Shown piece after piece: positions 394-53,200 of a DNA stretch of 64,000 bases (position 1 is its first letter; every line of letters starts with the position of its first letter). The position numbers and the translations under genes are program-made. Source of the stretch: Paracyclopina nana (taxonomy: Eukaryota > Arthropoda > Copepoda > Cyclopoida > Cyclopettidae); assembly GCA_019096065.1 (NCBI GenBank), contig JAGUCH010000004.1, forward strand, positions 744,001-808,000, given 5' to 3'. The notes beneath the pieces were generated by a model. The model had not been told where the DNA came from, made no database searches, and saw nothing but the letters and a program-made list of their open reading frames with translations.

Positions 394-1125
394 ATATTGT
401 CACACAGCTTATAGTAGTATAGCATATTGTCTCATAGCATTTTGTCTCATTGCATACCCATTGAGCCATGAGAAACAGTATGCGCTGGCTGCACTGTTGC
501 ACTAAATAAACCAGCCAAATTGGCCAAAGTGCTTACCCGGTTTTGATGACTCAATCAGTATAGCATATGGTTTCATAGCATATTGTCTCATTACTAATTA
601 TCATGCTATGTAACAAGATCGGGAAGCCAGAATAGGATGGATCTACCAGGACATACTGTGCTAGAAACGAATGTACTGTTCAAATCCGTGTCCGCAAAAA
701 TCCGTGCAGCCGTTCCGTGATAATCAGCCCCGCAAATCTCCGGTAATCCTCAAATAAAATAAATATTGTCACACAGCTTATAGTAGTATAGCATATTGTC
801 TCATAGCATTTTGTCTCATTGCATACCCATTGAGCCATGAGAAACAGTATGCGCTGGCTGCACTGTTGCACTAAATAAACCAGCCAAATTGGCCAAAGTG
901 CTTACCCGGTTTTGATGACTCAATCAGTATAGCATATGGTTTCATAGCATATTGTCTCATTACTAATTATCATGCTATGTAACAAGATCGGGAAGCCAGA
1001 ATAGGATGGATCTACCAGGACATACTGTGCTAGAAACGAATGTACTGTTCAAATCCGTGTCCGCAAAAATCCGTGCAGCCGTTCCGTGATAATCAGCCCC
1101 GCAAATCTCCGGTAATCCTCAAATA
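394..1125. repeat. 363-bp tandem direct duplication
   Basis: 394-756 and 763-1125 look identical where compared, separated by 6 bp, with a period of 369. Each copy has an AT-rich repeat part and a CCGTG/TCCGCAAAA-rich end. A shorter, diverged relative of that end lies near 21172-21240 (shared GTACTGTTCAAAT followed by TCCGCAAAA), so the module is dispersed. The near identity means a very recent duplication or an assembly artefact. Confidence 0.85.
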
Positions 1126-1663
1126 CGTACATATGGATAGTATTTTTCTTTAGAAGGTTTGGTGAGTTCAATTTTAAAAGTTGCTACAGTGATTGCGCAT
1201 CAGCAATCATCAAAAGATGCGCACACAACAGCATAACTCTTTTGTTGTCATGCTTCTGGAAAAAAGGCTGGACAAACAAGATGGTTTGTCTCTTTCTGGG
1301 TTCCAACATGCACTTACAGGGAGGCTAGGATTTTAAGCCCCTCTAACCAGTCAATTCAACCACTTCAGGTACAAAGGCCTTGCATTAATTCATTGACAGC
1401 AAGCACTCATGATTTTAGCACTGCTCTTCATAGCAGCCAAGTTCTATCCAAAAATTCTAGTAAAATCCAGAAAAATCAAGATTTGACATTCATGGATGAA
1501 ACAAATATTATTTCTACTATAAGGCAAAGTTGATTAAAATACATTGAATGGTTTTTAATTGAGATGATTTTGATTGAACGGATTTTCACGGAACGGATTT
1601 TTACGGAACAGAATATAACGGAACAGAATATAACGGCACGTATTTCAACAGATATACCCTAGA

Positions 1664-2490
1664 AACTACTGTGACGGTACCGGAGTAGAATCTACACCAA
1701 GACAGAGTGGAATAGGAACTACTGTGACAATACTTGAATAGAATCTACTCAATGACGAGCAGGAATAGGAACTACTGAGACAGTACAGGAATAGAAACTT
1801 TTGGGACAGACCAGGAACAGCAATTTTAACCAGACTAGGAATGTAAACTGTTGCCAATACATACCTTACTAGAATTTAGACCGACCAAATACTTTGAATT
1901 TGTTGAAACTATAAGTGAAATGCAATTGACTTCACAACCTAGCTGATACTTCAGGACTTAGACAATGCACCAAGATTTGGCCTAAACTTTAATACTTGGC
2001 TGAAACTTTGGGACTTGCCTCAAACTTCAGGACTTGCCTTTAACTTCAGGACTTGGCCAAAACTTCTGGACTTGCCTCAAACTTTAAGACTTGCCTCAAT
2101 CTTCAGGACTTGCCTATTTTAGGCTATGACTTTTTAAGCCACAGTACTCAAATGACTAAAAAACATGTCCAAGACTTAGAGGACTTGTTGCATACTTCAG
2201 TATATCTTATTTGTCATGACCTTAATTACTTAGCTGAATTATCTACCTGATGCATTTACTAACTTTGCTGGCCTAATTTCAGTCTCGTAAGTTCTATTCC
2301 TGTTCTGTCTTTGTAGTACGTAAGTAAAGGTCTGTTGTAGATGCTATTCCTGTTATGTTACTCAGTAGATCCTATTCCGGTTCTGTCACAGTAGTTTCTA
2401 TTCCTGGTATGTTGTGGCAGTAGATTACGGGTCCGTAGTAGATGCTAGTCTGGGTCCGTCACAGTAGTTTCTAGTCCAGGTCCGTAGTAG
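1664..2490. repeat. Inverted arms of ~25-bp units
   Basis: Left arm 1664-1860 repeats a unit near GGAATAGGAACTACTGTGAC. Right arm ~2290-2490 carries the inverse (CACAGTAGTTTCTATTCC). The arms are imperfect and enclose the ACTTCAGGACTTGCC repeat core. Confidence 0.65.
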
Positions 2491-2914
2491 ATCCTAAGGT
2501 AGGAGCCCACAAGATCCTATGAGACAACTTGTTATGGAACAGTACTATATATACTATGAGACCATTTGCAATAGAGCAATATGGTATTTGATAAATTGCT
2601 ATGAAAAAAATTGCTGTGTGAAAAATGGCTATGAGACAAATTCCTATGGAGACAAATTCTTAAGGAGACAAATTGCTATGAAACAATATGCTATGTGACA
2701 AATGGCTATGAGACAAATTCCTATGTGACAAATTCCTATGTGACAATATGCTATTGGATAATTTGCAATGGGCCATTGTGCTATGTGACAATAGGATATA
2801 GGATAATTTGCAATGGGCAATAAGTAAATATAATATGGCTACGGCACGTTTTTATGTCCCAAAAAATTAATATATTTATATTAATTTGCAATTTTTTGTG
2901 AAACTGGACTCATG

Positions 2915-3370
2915 GGCTTGCTAAAAATTCAGCTTATTTCTCCCAGGCTTATTGGCAATATGACTAATAAACAAAAAGTATCCAAATAGAGCCACCCTAA
3001 AAAGTTACTTAGCGCAAAAATAACACTAAAAAAAGTTGTGGGGAATGTAAAATTAGGACCACACTAAAAAATTCAGCTCATTTGGTTGAGGCCTGTAGGA
3101 GATTGCACAAAAATAGGCAAAACGCTTATAAACAAGTCCCATTTGAAGTTTGAATTTGGAAAAAAGTCATTAATAAAAGTTGTAGTCCTTGCAAAATGAG
3201 AGTCACACACAAAAATTCAGCTCATTTGATCATCAGGGAGCGGAGAAAAATGGAAGTCTGTCATTTGGCGGAAAATCAAAAAGTGCCGCTAATAAACATT
3301 ATGCGCGATGAGGAGAGGAATGCTCATGCCAAATTTCACGTTGATAGCTCAAACTATATGCACAGGGCTC
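2915..3370. repeat. Three diverged ~148-bp tandem units
   Basis: The landmark AAAAATTCAGCT(C/T)ATT recurs near 2922, 3070 and 3216, spaced about 148 bp, each preceded by a similar A-rich stretch ending in AGTTGT-like sequence. The copies are well diverged and contain no plausible gene. Confidence 0.6.
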
Positions 3371-3980
3371 CCAAATAACCCTACTGCTGAGAATATACTC
3401 ATCCCCTTTTTATGTTATTGGAAGCTATAGGCCAGGATTTTTATTTTATCACCAAATGAACCCTTGGGACATAAGCTTTCAGAAAATATATAATTTTTGG
3501 GTGTTGTAAGTAGTTTGGGTTAGGTCCTTTGCCAAGTCAATGTGTCAAGAGGTCCACTTATAGATCATAAACACTGATTGTGATCTAAATATGAATCTCT
3601 GCTTTCTCTAAAAAGAAGATGTCCATAAATAGATCAGCTTTGCTTGCGGGTCTACCGCTGTGATCTATACCGTCTGACCGTTCAAAATTGGACGGTGCGG
3701 GAATCAAAAGTTTGTGTTATAATTTCATGAACTTTGAGGCTTAATGGGTATCGTTGGAAAGCTTGAACCTTTGGACATCTTTTTTGTTTTCTGACAAAAT
3801 AAAGAATATTACTATTAGCTGAGACGGCTGAGCAGTACATAAGCTCCGACCATATAATTTCCATGATTTTTCATTGTTGTTTGATGTAGAGGAGGATAAT
3901 GAACATTATGCATCTACAAGTGGATAATGATCATTATGCCTCACTTGATCCTTGCGCCATCTATCATAGAAAAAAAGGAA

Positions 3981-4050
3981 GGTGGCAGTAAGAATCGAAC
4001 CCCAGTCACCTGGGTAGCGCGCTGACGCTCTACCTCTGAGCCATCAATTT
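3981..4050 (-). repeat. tRNA-like block (possible SINE head)
   Basis: On the minus strand there is an A-box-like TGGCTCAGAGG with GTAGAGC, and 28 bp later a B-box-like GGTTCGATTC. The acceptor arms do not pair and the anticodon arm does not fold properly, so it is not a working tRNA gene. A tRNA-derived SINE or a decayed tRNA fits better. Confidence 0.5.
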
Positions 4051-4596
4051 GATTGTGAAAGTTGCTTATGAGCAAGCCAGATGAGCAAGCCAGATGGGCC
4101 GGCGCGGCATGGCCGCAAGACGCAACGGCAACAGGCCACAGTGGCTCAAAATGCCTTCTGGACGCGCACGGGAAAAAAACTCGCGAAAAGTTTGATTTAG
4201 AAGTCAAATTTGAATATGTATCTGTCAATTCCACCAATTTTTGAATCTTTTCATTGCCTAGAAGTCAACCCAATTAAAATGAAAATTGGTGGTTAAATGA
4301 GAATTCGGGCGATTTGGCGCATTTTCTCGTGCTTGTGAAAACGGCTTTTTGACCCACTGTGCAGGCGCATGGGGAAGGCTAGACTGCTGGGTCAGCTTTG
4401 ATGAGCTCATGCTCGCTGTGCGCAGCGGCCACTAGCTAGCGCGGCCGGTGCAAGCTAGACCGCTGGGTCAACTTTGATGAGCTGTCTGCAATAAAGCGAA
4501 CCCCAAAATTTAAGGGATATCTTGCAAAAAAATGAGCAAGAAAAGCACTTCTTAATTGACTTTCAGGCATTGCTTGAAATGTTGGGGTAGCTAATA

Positions 4597-4755
4597 GTAA
4601 TAGGATTATACACCTCTAGGCTGTCGGATAACACTCATTATATTTTAGTGTCGCGTTACAATCACTCGTTCGCTCCGCTCACTCGTGATCTGTCACTTGA
4701 CACTAAAATATAATTCGTGTTATCCTCCAGCCTAGAGGCGTATAATCCTATATTA
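4597..4755. mobile_element. Palindromic MITE-like hairpin
   Basis: Two ~55-bp arms are near-perfect inverse copies: the left reads AGGATTATACACCTCTAGGC and on to a TATATTTTAGTGTC end, and the right returns GACACTAAAATATA to GCCTAGAGGCGTATAATCCT. About 45 bp lie between them. It sits inside the larger inverted-repeat element. Confidence 0.75.
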
Positions 4756-5180
4756 TTGTGAATTCCGCGTGACAGCAAAAAATAAATGATGCATCAGTTT
4801 TTTCGTGACAATTTTCTGGGTTGCCTTGGGAAAATTGAATTTTCCCGGTTTTTTCCTCTTTCAATTGATTTTTTCTACTTTTACAAAAAAGATGGAAAAA
4901 GGCTCAATCTTACCAACGATATCATTTAAAAGTCCTGTATTTCTTGAATATGTGACAAAAAGTTTAGATTCCCGTACCGTCCAATTTTGAACGGTCAGAC
5001 TGTATATTAACAAAAAAGTCTATTGATAGATCACAAAGATCAGTGATCTTTACTATCTTTATGATCTTTGTGATCAATATATCAATAGAGCGCTTTAAAT
5101 GATCATATATTAATCATATTTTAAAATTATCATACTTTAAAATAATCATATCTTAAAATAGTCATGTATTTTGATTACAA

Positions 5181-5572
5181 ATCATGAAAGTTCAATGAAA
5201 ATCATCAGATCTCAATGAAAATCATCAGATCTCAATTAAAATCATCAGATTTAAATGAAAATCATCAGATCTCAATGAAAATCATCAGATCTCAATGAAA
5301 ATCATCAGATTTCAATGAAAATCATCAGATCTCAATGAAAATCATCAGATTTCAATGAAAATCATCAGATCTCAATGAAAATCATCAGATCTCAATGAAA
5401 ATCATCAGATCTCAATTAAAATCATCAGATTTAAATGAAAATCATCAGATCTCAATTAAAATCATCAGATTTAAATGAAAATCATCAGATCTCAATGAAA
5501 ATCATCAGATCTCAATTGAAAATCATCAGATCTCGATGAAAATCATCAGATCTCGATGAAAATCATCAGATT
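5181..5572. repeat. 20-bp minisatellite, ~19 copies
   Basis: The unit AAAATCATCAGATCTCAATG recurs at a strict 20-bp period with few substitutions (CTC/TTT, AATG/AATT) and a single inserted base near 5519. It ends ~50 bp from the DIP2 exon 5 donor. Confidence 0.95.
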
Positions 5573-5624
5573 TATAATCTATGAACTTGAAATATCTTCA
5601 AAGGTTAAAGAAATGTGGACTTAC

Positions 5625-8600
5625 TTGAAACACAGAAAGGAATTGATCACAGGATGAGAGGGACCAGGGGTTGGCTCCGTCGGCGACTGTCAGCATGCGC
5701 AGCGAGGACAAGTTGAGCTCTCGGTGGTCCTTGGTGGCGAGGAGGCCCCAATGCAGATCCCTGGATTTGCACACCGCCACAGTGGCCCGATGCTTGGTGA
5801 CCATTTGCATCCAGGATGCAGGGTTGACCTTCATGAGCGCATAAGGGATGAAGATCACGTGCATCCCGTTGAACACGGAGGCCAGCATGGAGTGCCAGAG
5901 TCCAACCTCGCGCTTAAAGTCCAGGACGCAAACCATGATCTCGCCCTCCGTGTAGTTGCACGCCAGGGTGAGCGTGCGTGCATGCGCCAGCATGGCCGAC
6001 CTCGACACGGTCACACCGAGCACAGATCCATCGTGCTGCGTGGTGTACTCAAGGTAGGCAGGTGTGTCATCGGTGAGCCTGGGCGGGGGCAGCCAATCCT
6101 TGGGCGGCTTTGGCAGGTGCTCCGTGAGGAACCAGTGCATCTTGGGCCAGCCTTTGAAGGAGGCAATGTCACCGGTGGTCGTCTTGGGCAGGCCCTTGTA
6201 GCACATCTCCGACGTGAGGGCCACTGTCACGGAGCAGGAGCCGAGTAGGAATCCGATCTGGTGCGCACCTGCGTCCCTCCGCGTGATGGGCACCTCGATG
6301 GGCACCGGAACCACTCCGGCCATGGTGCACCCATAGAAGGCGCACATGAAGCCCAGAGGGTCGTTGTTGGGGTAGACGAGGGCCACGCGGTCTCCGGGCT
6401 TCACGCTGACGTCCGGCATCGTCGTCGCGGCCTTGAAGCCGATCCGGTTGAGGAGAGCGTAGGCAATTTTGTGCGACCTCGAGAGCAGCTTGCCGTAGGT
6501 GAGCGTGATGCTCATTTTGCCATTGGGATCGAGCACGGTGGCCGCGGGGGCTTTGTAGGTGGCCGAGCCGTAGCGCTGAATGGCGGCCTCCAGGTTCCTG
6601 GGCAGGCCGGCCGGAATGACAAGTTGGGGCCCGACGGCCGGGCTCATGGTGCTGCCCTCGGGCGAGGGCGCGTTCGGGTCCTTGGGGTTGGCGGCCATTT
6701 CAAGCTCGATGTCGTCGTCCTCGTAGAACTCCTCGAGGTGTCTCTTCTTGGGCTTCTTCAGCGTGTTCAAGAGCTGCTGGATTTTGGCTGACACCTTCCA
6801 CCTGGCCACCGTTCCGCCCTCTAAGAGTGAATCAAAATTAGAGCTAATTACTTTTCTAATAGCACGTTCTCATAAAACTCAGTAAGGCAGGCGGTAAGCA
6901 AAGCAAGGCACTTTGGAAGCTTATAACTCAGTAAGTATTGAGCCGATTGGAACCAAATTTGGAGGGATTCATAAGAGCGTATTGAAGATTCTTCAGGCCA
7001 ATTTTCATCCGGATTGGAGGTCTCTAAGGAGGTGGCTGATTTTTCTCCTTTGATTAACTGATTTGCCCCACTTTCAGTAAGGCGGCCTTAGCGTCCTCCA
7101 ATCCGGATGAAAATTGGCATGAAGATTCTTCAATACGTCCTTATAAATTCCTCCAAATTTGGTTCCAGTCGGACGAGTAGATGCTGAGATACAAGCGTGC
7201 AAAGTGCCTTGCTTACCTTATAGAAATGTTTATGAGAACAAGCTATTAGTTAAGCAAAGCTCTTTGATATTAAGCAAGGGTCTTTGGAAGCAAATGCCTC
7301 ACGTATTAATGAGCCGATTGGAACCAAACTTGGTAGGATTCTTCAGTGAGGCTATCCACAGCTGTGTACCAAATTTGGTTGTGATCCGAGGCCCCCAACT
7401 GGAGGCCGTTTAAAATGTGAGCAAGGCAGCTTTTATAGCGGGAAAAATGGCCTCCACTAATCAGCCTTCAATCCGGATGAATTTTGGCATGAACAATTAT
7501 TAGGGTCTACTGACGAATCCTACCAAGTTTGGTGCCGATCGGCTCAGTAGTGGTTGAGATATGCGCCTCCAAAGAGCCTTGCTTAACATTATAGGAGCCT
7601 AGCTAGAAAAATGTGAGAACGGGCTAATGATGGCGTTCAGCTTACGGCTGTCGAGGTCGGATGATCCGGTGGAGCTGATGTTGGAGTGCCGCACTGAAGT
7701 GACCTGCGATGATCTCGGAGGCTGCTGCTGCGGCTGGCCATGATATGAGGATCGATATTGCGCGGAGGAGTTGTGCGTGCCACCACCACTCGTGGCTTGC
7801 ATGCGATGCGAGATCATTTGGCTCTGCAATGCCACATCTGGTGTGCTGATTTGAGATTGTCGTTGCTGCTGCTGCTGCTGTTGCAACTGTTGTTGTTGTT
7901 GTGCCTGACTCAGGAACAAGACGTCATCTGAAAAAAAAAACCAATCATTTACCATTTGAGCGGAGAAACGCGAGCCTTTTGATTTTTTTTGCAGTGACTC
8001 CAAAAAGTATTAAGTTGAGAAAAAAATATATAATTTCAGCAATCCGCTCAAATAATCCGAGACGCCGAAGCACTACTTTGGACATCTAGTATAAATGATT
8101 GCAAAATATTGGTAACGCTCACATGGTTCCAAATTCAGTTCAGTGGTTTGAGGCTCATGTTGAGAAAGAGGCCGTTCAGCCTCGCCGCGGCCTCGCTGAG
8201 GCCGCTCACGACTGCGCTGCTGCCTGGCAGCAATCTTGGTGCTCACTGCATATTCGGACTCGTGAGGAACGGAGCTGTCACGGTCGTGTCGAGATCGCTG
8301 AGTCGAGCCTCGAGAACTGCGAGGTCCGGAATGATGCTCCCGATCGCGTTCCCGTCGCTGTTCTCGTTTCACGCGAGCAGCTTCCCTTTGTGGATCGGGA
8401 GTCGAAGTGAACTCTGGAGCTCCACCCTCACTAGACCTGCAAATATGAAAAAAGTAGTAGTAAAAATGCAGCGTGATTTATACACACATGCGGATATATC
8501 ATCAATTTTGCATGGCAATATACAAAGTGCCAAAAATTGGATCTTCCAGCGCAGAAGTTCTATACATATGTAAAAAGAACTTGGCACACTGGGCGGATAT

Positions 8601-19094: not shown

Positions 19095-19213
19095 TGATAC
19101 ACGAAAAAGAGTAAAATACCAATCCCAACTCTTTCTACCACCCAAAATTGTATATATTTTTATGCCATACATGGTTTTTTCCCTTCATTTAAAACTTCTA
19201 TATAGGGCTGATG

Positions 19214-19911
19214 GGGTGTACTGGTTAAAGGCTAATCGGCAAAAGGCTAATTGGTTAGATGCTAATTGGTAAAAGGCCAATTGGGCAAAGGCTACATTGG
19301 TAAAAGGCTATATTTAAAAGGCCAATAGCAGATGTTTTTGAGTTATAGTGTTTGATTGGTTCACAAGTGACATATCACTATCATTTCGTTTTCCTTGTTA
19401 ATTCTTAGTTTCATTATTTTTTGTGACAAAAATTGCTTTTTTGGGCTTAGCTTAGGAATTCATAAATAGACTTGGATCTGTACAGAGGAAAATTTTACAA
19501 ACAAGAATTACTTGCCTTGACTTGACTGACCAAGCTGATTTAGCTTATTGAGAATAAGCAAGACTTGATTCTGTTGTCACCGAGGAAAATAACTTTATTC
19601 AAGACACTAGGCCTTTCTCATGTTGCCAGACGTAGCTAAGCTAAGCAAACCCGTAATATTTTTAAAAGCAAAGCAGCTGCTTTTTTTGATTGAGGAAAAT
19701 TAGGCAATGAAAACCAGTTATTTTGGAACTTCAATGATCAAAATAGATGTCATTAAATGATTTGAACTCTTGTATCGTTATCAATTTAGCCTTTTTTTGT
19801 AGCCATTCTCCAATCTAGCCTTTGGCCAATTGGCCTTTCACCATTTCGCCTTTTACCAATTAGCCTTACGCCAAATAGCCTTTTACCGATTAGCCTTTAA
19901 CCAGTAGAGCC
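19214..19911. mobile_element. 698-bp foldback MITE with 8-bp target duplication
   Basis: Left arm 19214-~19330 repeats units like AAAGGCTAATTGGT. The right arm (~19795-19911) is the inverse (ACCAATTAGCCTTTT). The terminal 26 bp (GG.T.TACTGGTTAAAGGCTAATCGG form) differ at only two positions between ends. GGCTGATG stands directly outside both ends (19206-19213 and 19912-19919). There is no coding frame, so it is non-autonomous. An 8-bp duplication fits hAT- or P-type transposases. Confidence 0.88.
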
Positions 19912-20507
19912 GGCTGATGCTGGCTTTTGTACATTGATGGCAAAGTAGAACATCTAATTTATCAAAAATCAAGATTAGGTAAAAATCAGCGTACAAGTAA
20001 CCGAGTATATCATTTACTTATATTAATAAGGTTGATTATCTCAGTTAGAGTGCATTTCAGAGGCTTAAGTATGAAGTCAAAAAAGTGAGATAAATCATTT
20101 CTAGAGTGGGCCATTGTTATGCACCATCCTGAAAAAGTGAAAGGTGAAGGAGCTAGAAGCATTTGAAAAAAAGTGCAATATGAATGGATAGACCAGAATT
20201 TGGAAATAGCAACCCAAAAACCCACACCTATAGTTAACTATCAGAAAAATATATTCATTTGGTGGTAGGAAGGATTTGGTTTGGTTCTCATTGTGATCCT
20301 GCTCATAGTTTTTGGTTCCTTCATGAGCTTTTAGTTTTTATCTGTGAAAATGATTTTTGAATAAAGCCATAATTAAAAGTGTGCTCCTCCACTTCAAGAC
20401 TATGATAAAATATTAGAATATATATACATGCTTTATTTTCCCTCTTGACAATCAAGGATTTATAAGTTACATCAACATTTGAGTTATGTGCAGGTTAAAT
20501 ATTCGGA

Positions 20508-23750: not shown

Positions 23751-23759
23751 GGATTTGAG
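23751..23759. repeat. 9-bp target duplication of foldback element
   Basis: GGATTTGAG stands here and again at 29223-29231, directly outside the two ends of the inverted-repeat element. Confidence 0.85.
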
Positions 23760-25780
23760 CGGGTTGTCCAAAACCCGCACCGACCCGCACTGACCCGCAC
23801 TGACCCGCACTGACCCGCACCAACCCGCACCGATCCGCACCGACCCGCACTGACCCGCACTAACCCGCACCAAGCCGCACCAACCCGCACTGACCCACAC
23901 AAACCTGCACCATACCTCACAAACCAATAGAAAACAAAAAAAAGCTTAAAAAAGGTTTCTGCCAGCATGAACTTTTAAGCAAAACTTCAAAAGCAATTTC
24001 AAACCCGCACCAAGAAGTAACTTTTTTCAAAGTGGTTACTGCAAAAGTTTGCTGGTAGCATGACCTTTCTGGCACAAGTGGCCTTTTGGCCTTTGCAAGA
24101 AAAGTTACTGCAGTGGCTGGCCAGGAAAGAGCCATTTTTGCTCGCCTAGGTAGCGAAGCAAAACTTCAAGGGCAATTGCAGACCCGCGCCAAGAAGTAAC
24201 TTTTTCAAAGTGGTTTCTGCAAAGTTAGCTGGTAGCATGACCTTTATGGCACAAGTGGCCTTTTTGGCCTTTGCAAGAAAAGTTACTGCAGTGGCTGGCC
24301 AAGAAAGAGCCATTTCTGCTCTCCTATGTAGCGAAGCAAAACTTCAAGTGCAATTTCAAACCCGCGCCAAGTAACTTTTTCAAAGTGGTTTCTGCAAAGT
24401 TAGCTGGTAGCATGACCTTTCTGGCACAAGTGGCCTTTTTGGCCTTTGCAAGAAAAGTTACTGCAGTGGCTGGCCAAGAAAGAGCCATTTCTGCTCTCCT
24501 ATGTAGCGAAGCAAAACTTCAAGTGCAATTTCAAACCCGCGCCAAGAAGTAACTTTTTCAAAGTGGTTTCTGCAAAAGTTAGCTGGTAGCATGACCTTTC
24601 TGGCACAAGTGGCCTTTTTGACCTTTGCAAGAAAAGTTACTGCAGTGGCTGGCCAAGAAAGAGCCATTTCTGCTCTCCTATGTAGCGAAGCAAAACTTCA
24701 AGTGCAATTTCAAACCCGCGCCAAGTAACTTTTTCAAAGTGGTTTCTGCAAAAGTTAGCTGGTAGCATGACCTTTCTGGCACAAGTGGCCTTTTTGGCCT
24801 TTGCAAGAAAAGTTACTGCAGTGGCTGGCCAAGAAAGAGCCATTTCTGCTCTCCTATGTAGCGAAGCAAAACTTCAAGTGCAATTTCAAACCCGTGCCAA
24901 GAAGTAACTTTTTTCAAAGTGGTTTCTGCAAAAGTTAGCTGGTAGCATGACCTTTCTGGCACAAGTGGCCTTTGGCCTTTGCAAGAAAAGTTACTGCAGT
25001 GGCTGGCCTAGAAAGAGCCATTTCTGCTCTCCTATGTAAGCGAAACAAAACTTCAAGGGCAATTTCAAACCCGCGCCAAGAAGTAACTTTTTCAAAGTGG
25101 TTACTGCAAAGTTTGCTGGTAGCATGACCTTTCTGGCACAAGTGGCCTTTTTGGCCTTTGCAAGAAAAGTTACTGCAGTGGCTGGCCAAGAAAGAGCCAT
25201 TTCTTCTCTCCTATGTAGCGAAGCAAAACTTCAAGTGCAATTTCAAACCCGCGCCAGAAGTAACTTTTTCAAAGTGGTTTCTGCAAAAGTTAGCTGGTAG
25301 CATGACCTTTATGGCACAAGTGGCCTTTTTGGCCTTTGCAAGAAAAGTTACTGCAGTGGCTGGCCAAGAAAGAGCCATTTTTGCCCTCCTATGTAGAGAA
25401 GCAAAACTTCAAGTGAAATTTAAAACCCGCCCCAAGAAGTAACTTTTTTTAAAGTGGTTACTGCAAAAGTTTGCTGGAAGCAGTACCTTTCTGGCACAAG
25501 TGGCCTTTTTGACCTTTGCAAGAAACGATACTGCAGTGGCTGGCCAAGACAGAGATATCTATGCTCTCCTACGTAGCTGAGCAAAACTTCAAGTGCATTT
25601 TCAAACCCGCGCCAAGAAGTAACTTTTTTCAAAGTGGTTTCTGCAAAAGTTAGCTGGTAGCATGACCTTTATGGCACAAGTGGCCTTTTTGGCCTTTGCA
25701 AGAAAAGTTACTGCAGTGGCTGGCCAAGAAAGAGCCATTTCTGCTCTCCTATGTAGCGAAGCAAAACTTCAAGTGCGATT
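23760..25780. repeat. Foldback left arm
   Basis: 10-bp units (CCGCACTGAC and variants) at 23776-23900, then about ten ~179-bp units from ~24000 to ~25780. Landmark: GTTACTGCAGTGGCTGGCC once per unit. Unit length varies by 1-4 bp from small indels. Confidence 0.92.
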
Positions 25781-26339
25781 CAATTTCCAAATTTTCTCAG
25801 CTTTTTCTCATACCAGGGTTTATTTTTTCACTGGAAAATAAAGTGTCTCCCGACTCACTATTAAGCTAAAAACGATGCCACTCAATTTACTTAAGAAAAC
25901 TAAGCAACAAAACGGTTGTAGCAGGAACCCGGGACTGTGTTGCTTGGGCGCCTCCACCCGCCTTCCTGGTGGAAGTCACATGTTTAAGATGATCAGTAAA
26001 TACATGGCTATAATCTAGTAAACATCTCTATGCATTATCTCGTAAGAGCGTTGCGTGTCGGGCTAACAGTGTGTTCAAACTCCCACACTTACATAGTACA
26101 GCATCAAGTTTTTAGAATGGGATAGTCTTGAAATTTCAAGCCAACAAGGATTTGCGATTACAGGTAGAGAATAAGACATATTTTACTAAAAAAGAGTTCA
26201 ATCCGTGAGTTTTTTGGCTATTGCCAATTTCAACATATATATCAAGTTTTTTGAGTAAGGACTGGTTCTGGACCCTTTTGGACCCTTTTGGACCTAACAC
26301 ATGAGGTCCAATCAGCAGTTGGGCCTAGAAAAGGTCCTG
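25781..26339. other. Foldback central spacer
   Basis: About 560 bp of single-copy sequence between the arms. It has a short triplication of TTTTGGACC near 26275-26296. No transposase or other gene is visible. Confidence 0.7.
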
Positions 26340-29222
26340 CTTCACAACATAGGTGAGAAGAAATGGCTCTTTCTTGGCCAGCCACTGCAGTAACTTTTCT
26401 TGCAAAGGCCAAAAAGGCCACTTGTGCCAGAAAGGTCATGCTACCAGCTAACTTTTGCAGTAACCACTTTGAAAAAAGTTACTTCTTGGTGCGGGTTTGA
26501 AATTGCACTTGAAGTTTTGCTTCGCTACATAGGAGAGCAGAAATGGCTCTTTCTTGGCCAGCCACTGCAGTAACTTTTCTTGCAAAGGCCAAAAAGGCCA
26601 CTTGTGCCAGAAAGGTCATGCTACCAGCTAACTTTTGCAGAAACCACTTTGAAAAAGTTACTTCTTGGCGCGGGTTTGAAATTGCACTTGAAGTTTTGCT
26701 TCGCTACATAGGAGAGCAGAAATGGCTCTTTCTTGGCCAGCCACTGCAGTAACTTTTCTTGCAAAGGCCAAAAAGGCCACTTGTGCCAGAAAGGTCATGC
26801 TACCAGCAAACTTTTGCAGAAACCACTTTGAAAAAGTTACTTCTTAGTGCGGGTTTGAAATTGCACTTGAAGTTTTGCTTCACTACATAGGAGAGCAGAA
26901 ATGGCTCTTTCTTGGCCAGCCACTGCAGTAACTTTTCTTGCAAAGGTCAAAAAGGCCACTTGTGCCGGAAAGGTCATGCTACCAGCTAACTTTTGCAGTA
27001 ACCACTTTGAAAAAGTTACTTCTTGGCGCGGGTTTGAAATTGCACTTGAAGTTTTGCTTCGCTACATAGGAGAGCAAAAATGGCTCTTTCTTGGCCAGCC
27101 ACTGCAGTAACTTTTCTTGCAAAGGCCAAAAAGGCCACTTGTGCCATAAAGGTCATGCTACCAGCAAACTTTGCAGTAACCACTTTGAAAAAAGTTACTT
27201 CTTGGCGCGGGTTTGAAATTGCCCTTGAAGTTTTGCTTCGCTACATAGGAGAGCAGAAATGGCTCTTTCTTGGCCAGCCACTGCAGTAACTTTTCTTGCA
27301 AAGGCCAAAAAGGCCACTTGTGCCAGAAAGGTCATGCTACCAGCTAACTTTGCAGAAACCACTTTGAAAAAAGTTACTTCTTGGCGCGGGTTTGAAATTG
27401 CACTTGAAGTTTTGCTTCGCTACATAGGAGAGCAGAAATGGCTCTTTCTGTGCCAGCCACTGCAGTAACTTTTCTTGCAAAGGCCAAAAGGCCACTTGTG
27501 CCAGAAAGGTCATGCTACCAGCTAACTTTTGCAGAAACCACTTTGAAAAAGTTACTTCTTGGCGCGGGTTTGAAATTGCACTTGAAGTTTTGCTTCGCTA
27601 CATAGGAGAGCAGAAATGGCTCTTTCTTGGCCAGCCACTGCAGTAACTTTTCTTGCAAAGGCCAAAAAGGCCACTTGTGCCAGAAAGGTCATGCTACCAG
27701 CTAACTTTTGCAGAAACCACTTTGAAAAAGTTACTTCTTGGCGCGGGTTTGAAATTGCACTTGAAGTTTTGCTTCGCTACATAGGAGAGCAGAAATGGCT
27801 CTTTCTTGGCCAGCCACTGCAGTAACTTTTCTTGCAAAGGCCAAAAAGGCCACTTGTGCCAGAAAGGTCATGCTACCAGCAAACTTTTGCAGAAACCACT
27901 TTGAAAAAAGTTACTTCTTGGCGCGGGTTTGAAATTGCACTTGAAGTTTTGCTTCGCTACATAGGAGAGCAGAAATGGCTCTTTCTTGGCCAGCCACTGC
28001 AGTAACTTTTCTTGCAAAGGTCAAAAAGGCCACTTGTGCCGGAAAGGTCATGCTACCAGCTAACTTTTGCAGAAACCACTTTGAAAAAAGTTACTTCTTG
28101 GCGGGTTTGAAATTGCACTTGAAGTTTTGCTTCGCTACATAGGAGAGCAGAAATGGCTCTTTCTTGGCCAGCCACTGCAGTAACTTTTCTTGCAAAGGTC
28201 AAAAAGGCCACTTGTGCCAGAAAGGTCATGCTACCAGCTAACATTTGCAGAAACCACTTTGAAAAAGTTACTTCTTGGCGCGGGTTTGAAATTGCACTTG
28301 AAGTTTTGCTTCGCTACATAGGAGAGCAGAAATGGCTCTTTCTTGGCCAGCCACTGCAGTAACTTTTCTTGCAAAGGTCAAAAAGGCCACTTGTGCCAGA
28401 AAGGTCATGCTACCAGCTAACATTTGCAGAAACCCCTTTGAAAAAAGTTACTTCTTGGCGCGGGTTTGAAATTGCACTTGAAGTTTTGCTTCGCTACATA
28501 GGAGAGCAGAAATGGCTCTTTCTTGGCCAGCCACTGCAGTGACTTTTCTTGCATAGGCCAAAAAGGCCACTTGTGCCAGAAAGGTCATGCTACCAGCAAA
28601 CTTTTGCAGAAACCACTTTGAAAAACGTTCCTTCTTGGCGCGGGTTTGAAATTGCACTTGAAGTTTTGCTTCGCTACATAGGAGAGCAGAAATGGCTCTT
28701 TCTTGGCCAGCCACTGCAGTAACTTTTCTTGCAAAGGCCAAAACGGCCACTTGTGCCAGAAAGGTCATGCTACCAGCTAACTTTTGCAGTAACCACTTTG
28801 AAAAAAGTTACTTCTTGGCGCGGGTTTGAAATTGCACTTGAAGTTTTGCTTCGCTACAAAGGAGAGCAGAAATGGCTCTTTCTTGGCCAGCCACTGCAGT
28901 AACCACTTTAAAATTTGAAGTTTTAACTTCTTGCTAGCTTGCACCTGACATTTCCACTTGAAGTTATTCTTTTTAGATAGTTTTGATAAACAGCTTTATT
29001 CATGGCCAGTTGTGCCCAAAAGCTTTAGCTTGCTACTGATAAAGTGCATTATCTACTTTTAGTTTGCTTTTTATTGGTTTTTTTTTGGTTTGTGTGGTAT
29101 GGTGCGGGTTGGTGCGGGTTGGTGCGGGTTGGTGCGGGTTGGTGCGGGTTGGTGCGGGTTGGTGCGGGTTGGTGCGGGTCGGCGCGGGTTGGTGCGGGTC
29201 GGCGCAGCTTTTAGACGCAGCC
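26340..29222. repeat. Foldback right arm
   Basis: About fourteen ~179-bp units (landmark GGCCAGCCACTGCAGTAAC) from 26340 to ~28915, a short unique stretch, then GGTGCGGGTT 10-bp units at about 29101-29200 and the terminal 22 bp. It is the inverse of the left arm with four or so extra units. Confidence 0.92.
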
Positions 29223-29231
29223 GGATTTGAG

Positions 29232-48002: not shown

Positions 48003-49318
48003 ATGGAGGTTTGTGATGTAGCTCTGGTTGAAAAAGAAGTGAACAAAATCATAGACAAGTTCCACAAGCTGGAGAGCTCAAGCAGCCTGAAAATAAATGA
48101 AGCTCTTCAGTTAGTGAGAGCAGCAAAGAATGAGATACAAAATGGTAACCTTGCACTATACCTTCATAAAACATCCTAGTAGCAGTAAGCATCATTTTCT
48201 TTAAAGGCTCAGTCTCAAATGGGAGCCAAAAGATGATCACTCCAGCTCAGACCTTGATGTTGATCCAGGCTCTTCACCAAATCAAGGACACAGCCACAAA
48301 TGTGGGCTCTGATCATAGGGACCTGCATGCTGCTGTGTCCAGGGTTGGCAAGACCATAGACAGGTGCTTTGTGGCTGACTATGACTCCACTTCCAGGGAA
48401 GATGTGTTCACGTCACCAGAGCAACAAGCTCTGCTCAACAAGGTCATTTTGGAGCACTTTGGCAGGCAAGGCTTGGTTGGCATCAGTGATGATCTCATCA
48501 GAGAAGCAAAGTTCCCTCTTGAGGAGGATCCAATGCAGTCCAAAGCTTCATTTCAGGAGCTCAATTTCATCCAGGAAGCTTTCGAAAGGCGAGACTTGGC
48601 ACCAGCCCTTGATTGGGTGAGCAGACATAGGAACGACTTGCAGTCTTCATCGAGTCTTGAATTGAAACTGCACAAATTGCGCTACATTGAATTGCTCTGC
48701 CAAAATCAAGTGGATGCTGTCAGCTATGCACGTGCCCATTTTGCCAAATTCATCCATGGCAATGAGAGGGAAATCCAGGTAAAAAGCACAAATTGAAAAT
48801 CGTCCTCAGATTTTGTTAAAGCTGCTCTTGTTCAGTCACTTATGGGTGCTCTCATCTATGCTGGACCCAACAAGCTGGCCAATTCTCCATATGCTCATCT
48901 TCTGGATGACGCATTGTGGCATGACACGTGTGGAGCCTTTCTCAAGGAATCCTGTGGACTGATGGGCCTATCCACCGAGTCAGCTTTGTCCATTGTTGTC
49001 AATGCTGGATGTACAGCCCTGCCAGCTCTGCTGAACATCAAGCAAGTCATGCAGCAAAGACAAGTGGCTCGAGTGTGGAATGCTAAGGACGAGCTGCCAA
49101 TCGAGATTGATGTTGGCCCTGAGGCCAGATATCACTCCATTTTTGCTTGTCCCATCTTGAGACAGCAAACGACTGACATCAATCCGCCGATGAGACTAAC
49201 TTGTGGCCATTGCATATCAAGAGATGCTCTGGCCAAGCTGTCCATGGGGCACAAGTTGAAGTGCCCATATTGCCCAGCTGAGCAGAATCCCAATGATGCC
49301 AGGCAGATCACTTTTTGA
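48003..49318 (+). CDS. RMND5A: E3 ubiquitin ligase RMND5 (GID/CTLH complex)
   Basis: RMND5/Gid2 is one of the two RING-type subunits of the GID/CTLH ubiquitin ligase. Exons 48003-48144, 48207-48778 and 48836-49318 give 398 residues (human RMND5A 391). A helical N-terminus leads to LisH/CTLH-CRA sequence ([39 protein letters not shown]). The C-terminal RING-like block reads [33 protein letters not shown], ending ARQITF. The 3' end of the gene has been copied several times just downstream. Confidence 0.95.
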
Positions 49319-49460
49319 CACTTTATTACATCATATAATATATTGTAAAAAATACGGTGAACCAATTTTTTAAAAGCGATCATCAGAGCTATTCTTCTTA
49401 ATCATTGAGTGATATTAGGGAAACGTTCTTTTTGCTTACCTCATTTTGAGGGGGCAAGCA

Positions 49461-50262
49461 ATCAACATCGACCCTCTAATGAGACTTACATTCTGCCTTA
49501 AGTTGCATAAGGCACAAGTTGAAATGCCCTTTAAGCTCGGCTTAGCAGAATTTCAGTGATGCTAGGTAAATCACTTTTTGACACTTCATTGCTAGAAAAT
49601 GCAATATTTTTCAAATTGTGCTCCATTTTTCTGAGATAGCAACAAGTCTTATCAATAAGATTAATTCATGGCCATTGGGTAACAAGAGATGCTCTGGCCA
49701 AGCTGTCCATGGGTCACAAGTTGAAATGCCTTTTTTGCCCAGCTGAGAAGAATCCCAGTGATGCCAGGCAAATCACTTTTTGACACTTTGTTACCCCATA
49801 ATATATTGTAAGTTATAAGGTAAACCATTTTTAAGCAATCATCAGAGCTATTCTTCTTTCAAATCGTTGAGTGATATTATGGAAAAGGTTTTTTTGCTTA
49901 CCTCATTTTGAGGGGGCAAGCAATCACCATCGATCCTCTAATGAGACTTACACTCTGCCTTAAGTTGCATAAGGCACAAGTTGAAATGCCCTTTAAGCTC
50001 GGCTTAGCAGAATTGCAATGATGCCAGGTAAATCACTTTTCGACACTTTATTTTTAGGAAATGCAATATTTTTCAAAATGTGCTCCATTTTTCTGGGATG
50101 GCAACAAGTCTCATCAATAAGACTAATTCATGGCCATTGGATAGCAAGAGATGCTCTGGCCACGCAAGCTGTCCATGGGTCACAAGTTGAAATCCCTTTT
50201 TGCTCAACTGAGCAGAATCCCAGAGATGCCAGACATCACTTTTTGATACTTTGTTACACCAT
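49461..50262 (+). pseudogene. Decayed tandem copies of the RMND5 3' end
   Basis: Four partial copies of the last RMND5 exon lie at about 49461-49590, 49619-49800, 49920-50055 and 50080-50262. All keep versions of CACAAGTTGAAATGCC, AGCAGAAT..C and ATCACTTTTTGACAC. Copies 1 and 3 lack the middle; copies 2 and 4 retain the GGCCATTG part. The set forms two ~463-bp tandem units, each starting with CATCAGAGCTATTCTTCTT. Shifts and missing segments rule out RING function. Confidence 0.88.
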
Positions 50263-50290
50263 AATATATTTAAGGAAATACGGTACCTTT

Positions 50291-53200
50291 TCATAGACGA
50301 TCATCGATGCGGTTCTTCTTGATGATGGAGTGGCCATGTTCATTTCTTGATACCTTGAAAAAGTGGTCCACTTGGTCCACTCTGCCGAGGAAATCCAAAA
50401 GGTCAACGTCGTGCGTAATGACAATTAGCTGAAAGTTGGAATTGGCCCTATTGGCCACCAAATCGCTGAGGGCATGAGCTAGAGACTCGATATTCTCCCT
50501 GTCCAAATTTGTCGTAGGTTCATCTAAACTGAAAAAAAAAACCATCACAGTTAAAAAAGCTCCCAAGAAAAGTATGGAAGTTAACTCACGCGATGATGCC
50601 GCAATTTGTGGAAAATGTTTCAGCCAAGGCCAGCCTGATGATCAAGGATGCCAAGACCTTTTGACCAGCAGAGCAACGACCTCTCATTTCCAGTTCAGTG
50701 TCATTTTTGACCATGACAACTCGGTAGTTGTAGCTGCGCCTACGATCAGCACCCGCATTGACGTCCACGTCATCGGTCTTGATTTCAATGTAGTCAATGT
50801 CGTTGCCCTTGTACGTGGCTTTCCACAAGTCCTTGGCAATGCGATTGATGACCTTCATGCGCTCCTTGTGGAATCGCAAAATGGCCCACTCCAGGGCAGT
50901 GTAATAGGTGTTCAAGTCCTTGGCCACTTTCTCACGAGCCACCTTCTGCACGAGCTTCTTCCGGAACCGCTCTCCGGCCAGCTTGATCCGGTCCTGGTCC
51001 AGCTCCTTGAGCAAGTCGGAAATATGGTCTTCAAGGCCGGCCAAACGGCCTTTGTTGGTGCTCGACTCACGATCCAGCTGCTCAATTTGCTCAATGAGCA
51101 ATTGCTTCTTTTCGTTGAAGGACTCATAGTTGAGTGATTTCAGTTGGGCCTTCAAAGCCTTCACTTGGTCCACGTATCGGGTCTCGTCGGCCAAATGTCG
51201 ATTGAGCTTGATGTTGTCTTCCAAATGCCGTTTCCTCAATGCCTGAGAGTTGATCAGCTTGTCCACTTTGAGGAGTTTCCCATTCAAATCCTCTTCCTTG
51301 GACTTGATATCGCTCAAATCTTGACGCAATTTGCCTACTTCACGGTCATACTCGACCACTTTCTCCTCGTTGCCAGACTTGTCATACTTGTCAACACTGT
51401 TGTGAGCATTCTCAACCTCTTTCTGCTTGTCTCGAATGTGAGTGATTTTGCCCTCGAGTTTCCTCAGTGAAGATTCTTTGCCTCCGATCGTTTTCTCCTT
51501 GGCCTGGCGAGCTTGGAAAATCTCCCCATCCAGAGGCTTGAGCTCCTCAATCAGCTTGGCCATTTCCTGGTTGTCATTGGCAATTTGGCCTTCCAATGCT
51601 GACCTCTTCTCCTCCATGTTGGACCTCTCTTGCTGCTGCTTCTCCAATTGGAGCTTGTTGTTGAAGAGTGCATTTTTCTCGCTCTGCAACCGATTGACAA
51701 GTCCATCATAATTGACCTTGGTCGACCTCAGCTCCTCAAGATCATCACGGATCCGATCCAGATCTTGAGATTTGACCTCTTCCTCAGCCTTGACATCGTC
51801 GTAGCTCCTGGCGGCCAAGCCATGCTGGCCAAGCCTTTTTTCCAGCTCATCAACGGAGCCTTGCAGTGCTTTGACCTCCCTGCTCAAGTTGTCCATTTGG
51901 AGCACTTGCTCCCGAATGGTGTTACATGTGCGGACGCTCTCGTCCACACTTTCCAAGTCGCGCTCAATTTGGGCGCAATCAGTCTTCATTTGGCCAATGG
52001 AGTGCTGCAACTGCTCCAAACGTTTGCTTTTGTCCTCAAGGTCATCACGGAGGCCAAGACACATTGTCTTCTCAGGCAGTTTGTCCTCCAGGTCTTTCTG
52101 CAATTTCAACGCTTCCTCCAGCCTGGATTGGCTGTACTTGACTCTCTCTGGCACACTCTCAATTTCAGCCTTTAAGAATGCAATGACTTCTTGGCACTCC
52201 TCAGAGGAGTCGAACACTCTTGAGCAAGTCGGGCAGATCTCAGAGTTGCCCAGTTTCTCAACAAACTCCTTGAACGTGTGCTTGTTGGCCTCTTTCACCT
52301 GCAGCTCCGCCCTGCATTTTTCCACCTTGGCCTTGGCACTCTCCAAGCACGCGTCAAACGCGTCAATGGTGCACAGTGGCCCCAGCTCCTGTTGGAACTG
52401 TTTGATTCTCAATTCACCAGATTTGACGTCATCACTCGTACGGTTGAGGTTGGCACTCTCGTGGTCGATTTTCGACCTCAACTGCAGCCTCTTCTGCACC
52501 AGATCGGCCTTTTTCTGCGCAGAAGCTTTGTCCACCTTGATGAACTCCTCTTTCAGGTCATGCAAAGCCGGCACTTGTTTCTGGAACAAAGACTCCAGGT
52601 CATGATTGCACCTGTGACGGATCTTCTTCAGAGACGCACTTTTGCACTCCAAGTCCTTCTTCTTGAGCTCGATTTGTGCAGTCATTTCGCGGTCTTTGGA
52701 CAACGCTGACATCTCTTGTCTCAAGGCGCGCAACTCCTTGTCCAAAGCTTGAACCCGTTCAGATTTCTCCTGTATTTCTCTTGCTACTTGAACAGGGTCC
52801 AGGGATGACTCGACTTTGGACAATTCCTGCTCCTTGGCCTCCAACTGTTGCCTCAAATTGGCCAATTTCGTCGAATAGCCATCCAACTCCGAAAGTTGTC
52901 GTTTGAGCAGAGCGAGCTCTTTGTTGCGCTGTATCTTCGATTGCATCAATGATTCCTTCCTCTGGTCGACTTGAGCCTTTTGGATCTCCAGTTTTCCAAT
53001 GTGGGCCTGGTGCTGCTCAAGAGCTGACTCGAAGGCCCTCTGCTCCTTGGCCTTTTCTTCTTCGAAATGCGCTCTTGTGGCCTCGATGTTATCCAGGGCT
53101 TCCCTCAAATTCCTCTCCTCAAAAATGGCCTCATTGCTGAGGTCCCAGTCCAAATATGCACCAATGTCGCGTAAACGCTTCTTCAACTCCTCCTTGTTAC

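Follow-up and report, generated by a model that had tools for sequence, protein, structure and literature searches.

A foldback transposon family with long tandem-repeat arms in the copepod Paracyclopina nana, probably mobilised in trans by a MULE-type transposase

The window, a 64,000-nucleotide stretch of Paracyclopina nana contig JAGUCH010000004.1, contains xylosyltransferase and trypsin-like genes, a foldback element at 19214-19911 flanked by an 8-bp duplication, and the longer, well-preserved foldback element described here (Table 1). The sequence-only reading had estimated the inverted arms of the latter at ~2.0 and ~2.9 kb of 10-bp and ~179-bp repeats, flanked by an exact duplication, and measurement of the arms and flanks confirms this organization. 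The 179-bp arrays of the two arms are inverted copies of each other (91-99% identity in the 25 longest pairs listed). In the family, the ends are CGGGTTGTCTAAAAC and GGCCGCGTCTAAAAG, the left one also written CGGGTTGTCTAAAACC. The right terminal motif is conserved, yet unlike the left one: the 22-bp ends of the window element align without gaps, as had been proposed, but with only 13 of 22 positions identical, and the commonest family ends agree at 14 of 22 and share a GTCTAAAA core. A comparison of the loop with five MULE proteins from the same genome gave no match, and an Rfam scan of the window returned nothing at the gathering score.

Table 1. Features of the foldback element, in window coordinates
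Feature	Position	Strand	Details
Complete foldback element	23760..29222	.	5,463 bp; same edges in other copies; identical 9-mers on either side
Left 9-bp target site duplication	23751..23759	+	GGATTTGAG
Right 9-bp target site duplication	29223..29231	+	GGATTTGAG
Left terminal motif, family form	23760..23781	+	CGGGTTGTCYAAAACCYGCACC; 35 genome places with up to 3 mismatches, 23 exact
Right terminal motif, inward-reading family form	29201..29222	-	GGCYGCGTCTAAAAGCTGCGCC; 33 genome places with up to 3 mismatches, 24 exact
Left arm	23760..25780		2,021 bp
Subterminal 10-bp array, left	23773..23911	+	ACCCGCACCG; 13.9 copies (TRF)
Left-arm 179-bp-unit array	23977..25780	+	period 178 bp; 10.1 copies (TRF)
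Loop	25781..26337	+	557 bp
Right arm	26338..29222		2,885 bp
Right-arm 179-bp-unit array	26338..28903	-	14.3 copies (TRF and inverted repeats)
Subterminal 10-bp array, right, inverted	29100..29199	-	10.0 copies (TRF)

Both end patterns were sought genome-wide with up to 3 mismatches, giving 35 left and 33 right matches. The patterns read backwards gave 5 and 23 matches, respectively, the right-hand control saying little because the backward pattern almost coincides, one base off, with the reverse complement and, by inspection, probably falls on the same places. The matches form 29 convergent left/right pairs spread over contigs C1, C2, C3, C4, C6, C7, and C9, and 6 of the 35 left and 4 of the 33 right ends are solo. 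Identical 9-mers lie outside both ends in 21 of the 29 pairs, an identical 10-mer in one, and neither in seven; among 870 mismatched end pairs taken as a control, the single 9/9 match is one flank entered twice, which leaves no real match. Edges equivalent to 23760/29222 therefore recur in genome copies, and perfect 9-bp target duplications accompany most of them; edges placed elsewhere in other copies, which would have refuted the sequence-only reading, are not what was seen. In about 30 copies a 10-bp array lies inward of each end, followed in most copies read by an inverted 179-bp array, and total length varies from 0.5 to 15.5 kb despite the conserved ends. Matches of at least 273 bp to the loop, in which no gene was recognised, were found in at least 14 of 30 elements, the window copy included, among the best 40 of 90 candidates scored, and the loop is inverted relative to the ends in one of 14 copies; longer loops of 777-1,033 bp occupy most other copies read. 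The long inverted tandem-repeat arms and the dispersed, fixed-edge copies with duplications (22/29) place the family in the foldback structural class, so that the original call of a foldback transposon stands.

A single query looked for empty sites of three copies, with 40 of 258 candidates scored. The joined flanks of the copy at C6:828258 align across the site of insertion with four places in tandem on C5, one on C4, and one on C9, with only 14-22 bases right of the junction in each case, and in one C9 relative 14 extra bases sit precisely at the junction. Among the three, this copy alone gave uninterrupted relatives, which are short related empty sites.

A palindromic 179-bp satellite, of which the "element" would be a rearranged block with edges produced by chance, would accommodate single arrays of up to 48.5 head-to-tail units, such as the one that fills 8.7 kb of an 8.9-kb stretch (L091) in the member at C3:2242700-2258187, as well as the homogenization of units inside arms. 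The fixed edges bearing target duplications, the related empty sites, the paired copies on seven contigs, and the lack of a clear unit surplus outside elements speak against it, and this barely credible reading is already contradicted. Specifically, the genome contains 746 unit anchors: 389 were read inside elements and up to ~392 are expected in the elements' unread parts, so that by this indirect count the elements can explain the total, and free 179-bp satellite was not seen in the assembly. Among 100 unit-anchor places listed, 98 fall within elements and the other 2 adjoin a solo left end. A unit occurring mainly as plain satellite, which would have spoken against the sequence-only reading, is not what the indirect count indicates.

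The number of full units per arm ranges from zero to 55. For ~142 of 381 units the most similar unit is in the same arm, where chance would give 18, and some arms show multi-unit duplications. In a block-spacing test applied to arms with at least 10 units read, and without correction for eleven tests, the best spacing of seven of eleven arms was matched by fewer than 50 of 1000 shuffles and four arms have no block signal; the signal is weak in the arms of the window element, for which 38 and 192 of 1000 shuffles are as high. The earlier proposal that unequal unit numbers reflect ongoing expansion holds insofar as numbers differ between arms and copies, but nothing dates the growth to the present. 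The 179-bp unit does carry, as had been noticed, a version of the 10-bp motif, which is only slightly better conserved than the remainder of the unit (0.968 vs 0.958). A tentative and rather doubtful suggestion is that the 179-bp array forms a second tier of putative transposase-binding sites, with one ACCCGCRCC-like end-array motif per unit. If so, an arm with tens of units would attract the transposase or titrate it, and longer arms would be favoured for helping a non-coding element to compete for the enzyme.

The autonomous partner was sought with PF10551, two MULE proteins, and the 378-aa frame of one member (L081). All candidates were scored for PF10551 and the first MULE protein, and 101 of 106 for the second, and these three genome searches, all with MULE queries, revealed no recognised transposase, NOF-like or other, between family ends. 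The sole MULE match within a family element, at C9:4283875, was rejected as a partner gene: the fragment sits in a ~680-bp dispersed repeat that is nested in the loop and also present, whole or partial, at four other places read. The 7.7-kb interior of L081 (C1:10001507-10010406) was likewise rejected, being read by judgement as a nested repeat-armed element with its own arms of a ~24-bp unit; a scan around it gave no exact duplication of at least 8 bases, and a doubtful 7-of-9 match was seen by eye. No Pfam match was obtained for the loop-borne pair of frames in L081 or for its 378-aa frame, which has relatives elsewhere that are only partial. The long members, of up to 15.5 kb, were suspected of carrying a gene, but in C3:2242700-2258187, the most fully read of them (others were read in part), the stretch L091 proved to be mostly array.

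Since no MULE transposase was found between these ends, the length of the duplications and the sister elements are the basis for the assignment to MULEs. A gene-bearing member may exist outside the assembly. Target duplications of 8-10 bp, usually 9, are a feature of the Phantom/Muta MULEs and occur in this family. PF10551 was found at five genome places, three of which (L044-L046, read on both sides with 10 kb around) have inverted repeat arms; TRF reports these as tandem on either side of L044 but on a single side of L045 and of L046. Their flanking repeats are GATATACCT (L044), CATCAGTAT (L046), and the 8-mer GCTGCTAG (L045), chosen by a scan without shuffled control that in L046 ranked another 9-mer first, CATCAGTAT being picked for its position beside the arms. 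At the fourth place (L042, read on one side only), the end GGCTCTACTGGTYAAAGGCTAA of the window's 19214-19911 element recurs upstream of the MULE gene, and at the fifth (L043, 3.3 kb covered) no inverted repeat of at least 20 bases was detected. These three repeat-armed MULE carriers with 8-9-bp flanking repeats and the end shared with a fourth weigh against mobilization by a non-MULE transposase, either P-type as in Galileo or of another kind, that would produce the same anatomy and arm growth. The 7-bp duplications described for Galileo in the consulted part of PMC3573991 also differ from those observed here, which measure 9 bp in 21 and 10 bp in one of 29 pairs. Such an enzyme, though unlikely, has points in its favour: several superfamilies have given rise to foldback arms (PMC3169594 and PMC3573991, in part), a transposase was not found between these ends, and the 378-aa frame without Pfam match in the nested repeat-armed element of L081 indicates that a recognised MULE is not universal among the repeat-armed gene carriers of this genome.

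The best explanation, to which we assign a probability of about 0.78, is a non-autonomous foldback family that depends for its movement on a trans-acting MULE-type transposase, Phantom/Muta-like in kind, and whose arms grow by multi-unit duplication. The transposase, produced elsewhere, would recognise the end motif and the subterminal repeats, excise the element, and reinsert it through a staggered 9-bp cut. The similarities among units suggest that the arms may gain or lose length by unequal exchange or replication slippage that copies blocks of units, whereby arm lengths would drift in each copy and units would become most alike within one arm.

Among the papers listed in a literature search, none dealt with the present family by title or start of abstract. 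Drosophila FB/NOF elements combine 9-bp duplications with inverted arms that are made of short tandem repeats. FB is cited among the elements with composite repeat arms in PMC3169594. Repeat arms with 9-bp duplications, which the sequence-only reading took as the definition of FB, are not exclusive to it, as they also occur in Tm1 (PMC3169594) and Muta1 (PMC5225508), and Galileo has repeat arms together with a P-type transposase and 7-bp duplications (PMC3573991), as far as the consulted portions of these sources go. Full membership in the FB/NOF (Rehavkus) lineage, rather than in the Phantom/Muta-type MULEs, is even less probable than a non-MULE enzyme: 9-bp duplications and repeat-rich termini suit both lineages, and the table entry for Rehavkus gives 9-bp duplications and a minisatellite, but its transposase has a PHD finger (PMC6446971, in part) that was not seen in the proteins scanned here, two of three MULE frames scanned against Pfam ending instead in a RING-type stretch (one above the cut-off, one just below). 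No NOF-type gene was found in the present family with the PF10551 and MULE protein queries, and FB was compared by description only.

Among the systems compared in the available parts of their descriptions, Tetris of Drosophila virilis is likewise a foldback element without coding capacity: a flanking domain is followed in each arm by ~220-bp units in array, the middle is variable, unit numbers vary among copies, and no autonomous partner was found (PMC4079207). Differently from Tetris, the present unit measures 179 bp and is accompanied by an outer 10-bp array, copies with both ends number 29 against three structurally complete Tetris, and no unit surplus was seen outside elements; 395 of 610 Tetris units lay in unit-only contigs, though fibre-FISH saw no unit-only array (PMC4079207). 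Tm1 of root-knot nematodes resembles the family in its composite repeat arms of varying length, unlike end motifs, and 8-10-bp, mostly 9-bp, duplications (45 of 53 Tm1), and one of its member classes carries a MULE/Phantom transposase; it differs in its ~14-bp repeats, with no mention of a long-unit array in the consulted text (PMC3169594), and in that no gene-bearing member was found here. Muta1 and Muta5 of Aedes aegypti are MULEs that produce 8-9-bp duplications and have, next to a short motif at the end, a subterminal tandem array of 12- or 15-bp units, Muta1 being termed a type 2 Foldback element and active in yeast; they differ in their 145-151-bp arms and transposase gene, and the part consulted mentions no long-unit array (PMC5225508). 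Lastly, Galileo of Drosophila has long arms, with ~210-bp tandem units in its F subfamily and unit numbers that differ between the arms of one copy, and is set apart by its P-type transposase and by 7-bp duplications (PMC3573991), against 9 bp in most pairs here. On the best reading, the family resembles Drosophila FB, Tetris, and nematode Tm1 and is new within a known kind, identity with FB itself not being established.

The family presents a satellite-like repeat that is seemingly still confined to a transposon. With arms of none to 55 full units in one genome and no clear surplus outside elements, the transition from foldback arm to satellite that has been argued for Tetris becomes open to stepwise testing, and copies with arms of differing length offer natural material for examining an effect of that length on mobility. 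Such arms are also hazardous for assembly and for inversions, as in the one loop of 14 that is flipped relative to its ends.

The genome comprises 92 Mb in 10 contigs (C-numbers name contigs, L-numbers individual stretches), and the window corresponds to C4:744001-808000. The 5,463-bp element at 23760-29222 is a transposon with inverted arms of 2,021 bp (left) and 2,885 bp (right) and with GGATTTGAG directly outside both ends; the coordinates proposed from the sequence alone are correct to the base.

Layout of the foldback element within the window
Feature	Position	Arrangement
Left end motif	starts 23760	followed by 10-bp array
Left 10-bp array	23773-23911	followed by spacer
Left 179-bp array	23977-25780	adjoins loop
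Loop	25781-26337	between the two 179-bp arrays
Right 179-bp array	26338-28903	inverted order relative to left arm; followed by spacer
Right 10-bp array	29100-29199	inverted order relative to left arm
Right end motif	ends 29222	outside right 10-bp array

Genome-wide, with up to 3 mismatches, the left end pattern occurs at 35 places and the right at 33; the backward-pattern controls give 5 (left) and 23 (right), the latter being of little use because the right end nearly equals its own complement, reversed. These ends form 29 convergent elements, and since every pair joins one left and one right type, the two motifs are not interchangeable. A 30th element (C2:2994639-2999983) has no recognisable right end. 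Flanks were compared for all 29 pairs: 21 carry identical 9-mers, C6:1272068-1286331 carries an identical 10-mer, and the other seven match at 7, 1, 4, 5, 7, 3, and 1 of 9 bases. Among mismatched left/right flank pairs, used as a control, a 9/9 match arises once in 870, from one flank entered twice.

The 30 elements range from 509 to 15,488 bp (median 5,404), and the parts covered hold from none to 55 full units (>=165 bp) per arm, counts that are lower bounds for many elements because these are covered in part. Specifically, one arm of C3:2242700-2258187 has a 48.5-copy array inside the stretch L091, and among the small members covered, L084 and L086 form palindromes without a loop, while the units of L082 and L083 lie essentially in one orientation. 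With 40 of 90 candidates scored, at least 14 of the 30 elements, the window included, carry the window-type loop (match of at least 273 bp). In 13 of these 14 the loop faces the same way with respect to the end motifs; C2:9986482-10001080 has it flipped and nevertheless keeps a perfect target duplication. The flip would be the expected product of recombination between inverted arms.

Occurrence of the 179-bp unit mainly as a plain satellite would have spoken against a transposon arm. A 27-base anchor of the unit has 746 genome matches (<=3 mismatches; control 0), and in 29 scanned loci, selected around elements, all 389 anchors fall inside elements. The remaining 70 kb of elements have room for up to about 392 more, an upper bound that supposes array throughout, and therefore no clear surplus is left for free arrays, although some anchors could lie outside elements. 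Among the 100 matches listed (from C1 and the beginning of C2), elements contain 98, and the other two lie next to a solo left end at C2:2670968. A rarer variant is inside elements at 6/6 places. Arrays could also be hidden in collapsed or missing heterochromatin. As the sequence-only reading had it, the unit includes a relative of the 10-bp unit, CAAACCCGCGCCAAG, whose conservation (0.968 vs 0.958 overall, lowest within the motif at CpG positions) is compatible with a putative binding site without in itself pointing to one.

When each of the 381 extracted units is assigned its nearest neighbour, ties being shared out, about 142 find it within their own arm against 18 expected, 20 in the other arm of their element against 11, and 219 in a different element against 351. 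Inside arms, identity is highest at distances of several units; the 55-unit arm has its maximum at spacing 9, a value that 0 of 1000 shuffles reached. In seven of the 11 arms with at least 10 covered units, fewer than 50 of 1000 shuffles equal the peak; the other four lie outside this limit (window arms: left 38, right 192). These patterns suggest that blocks of units duplicate locally, through unequal exchange or slippage, and that exchange from one arm to the other is weak. Of the ongoing expansion first proposed, the unit-block similarities thus uphold a past phase, and present-day growth is not borne out by the same data.

Joining the flanks of C6:828258-833231 gives a sequence that aligns through the junction to relatives without an interruption, four in tandem on C5 and one each on C4 and C9 (75-84 bp, 82-85% identity, with just 14-22 bases of each alignment right of the junction). 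There the 9-mer is present in one copy and matches at 9/9 (C4), 8/9 (C5), and 7/9 (C9) bases. Since these places represent divergent members of a small target repeat, they count as related empty sites and not as empty alleles. A further C9 place (L098:38-140) is identical to the C6 site over 21 right-hand bases and has 14 additional bases exactly at the insertion point, either old sequence or an excision scar. With 40 of 258 candidates scored, no uninterrupted relative was found for the joined flanks of the window's own copy or of the C2:12008349 copy.

The MULE transposase profile PF10551 matches five places in the genome, and each of the three loci covered with 10 kb around it has arms of inverted repeats, which TRF finds to be tandem on both sides of L044 and on a single side of L045 and of L046. 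The repeats that flank them are GATATACCT in L044, the 8-mer GCTGCTAG in L045, and CATCAGTAT in L046, the last being part of an exact 10-mer and picked by position, the scan having put another 9-mer first. In L039/L044 a frame of 537 aa is open and contains MULE and RING-type domains. Moreover, a second foldback element in the window (19214-19911, 698 bp; 19206-19919 with its 8-bp duplication GGCTGATG) has inverted arms of ~15-bp repeats (TGGTAAAAGGCTAAT) and an end, GGCTCTACTGGTTAAAGGCTAA, of which a version with a single difference lies upstream of the MULE gene of L042 (C1:17718 kb; 3.3 kb covered). Given the repeat-armed loci and this shared end, repeat-armed non-coding elements here can be tied to MULEs. 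The family of the 5,463-bp element has target duplications of MULE length; no MULE gene in the genome was found enclosed by its ends, so that its assignment is by analogy. Against the MULE link stands L081 (C1:10001407-10010506), in which ~619-8289 (7.7 kb, inverted arms of ~24-bp units), enclosed by the arms of a family member, is read as a nested element; its frames of 378 and 118 aa have no Pfam match and are not recognised as MULE. A dispersed repeat of ~680 bp carries a fragment of a MULE transposase gene; it occurs within one member of the family and at four further places (L089:1463-2130, L092, L093 in part, L094, L095).

Set beside known systems as their sources describe them, the family is closest in architecture to Tetris, whose arms have 220-bp units (PMC4079207), and in ends and duplications to Tm1 (PMC3169594) and Muta1 (PMC5225508); Galileo has tandem units but 7-bp duplications (PMC3573991). 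The Mutator and Rehavkus characters used for comparison are those given in PMC6446971 (see also PMC13359780). On this comparison it is classed as a new family of foldback elements that operates in a MULE-like way and probably belongs to Phantom.

Other repeats were also noted. In the window, 15-bp repeats (TGCTATGTGACAAT) in opposed orientation at 25-1125 and 2593-2791 are possibly another foldback element; 394-1125 is a perfect 369-bp tandem duplication, and 1660-2496 holds tandem blocks of ~26-bp units (CAGGAA... / GTAGATCCTATTCCTG), a similar motif lying near the end of L046. A 462-bp tandem repeat (49193-50320, 2.4 copies) reaches into the end of a frame coding for CTLH and RING-type domains and is perhaps a partial duplication of a gene end. 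Long ~16-bp arrays (AAAGTCCCCAAGGGCA) in L093:20-628 and L095:1086-2217, with a large inverted pair in L095, possibly represent a further foldback family.
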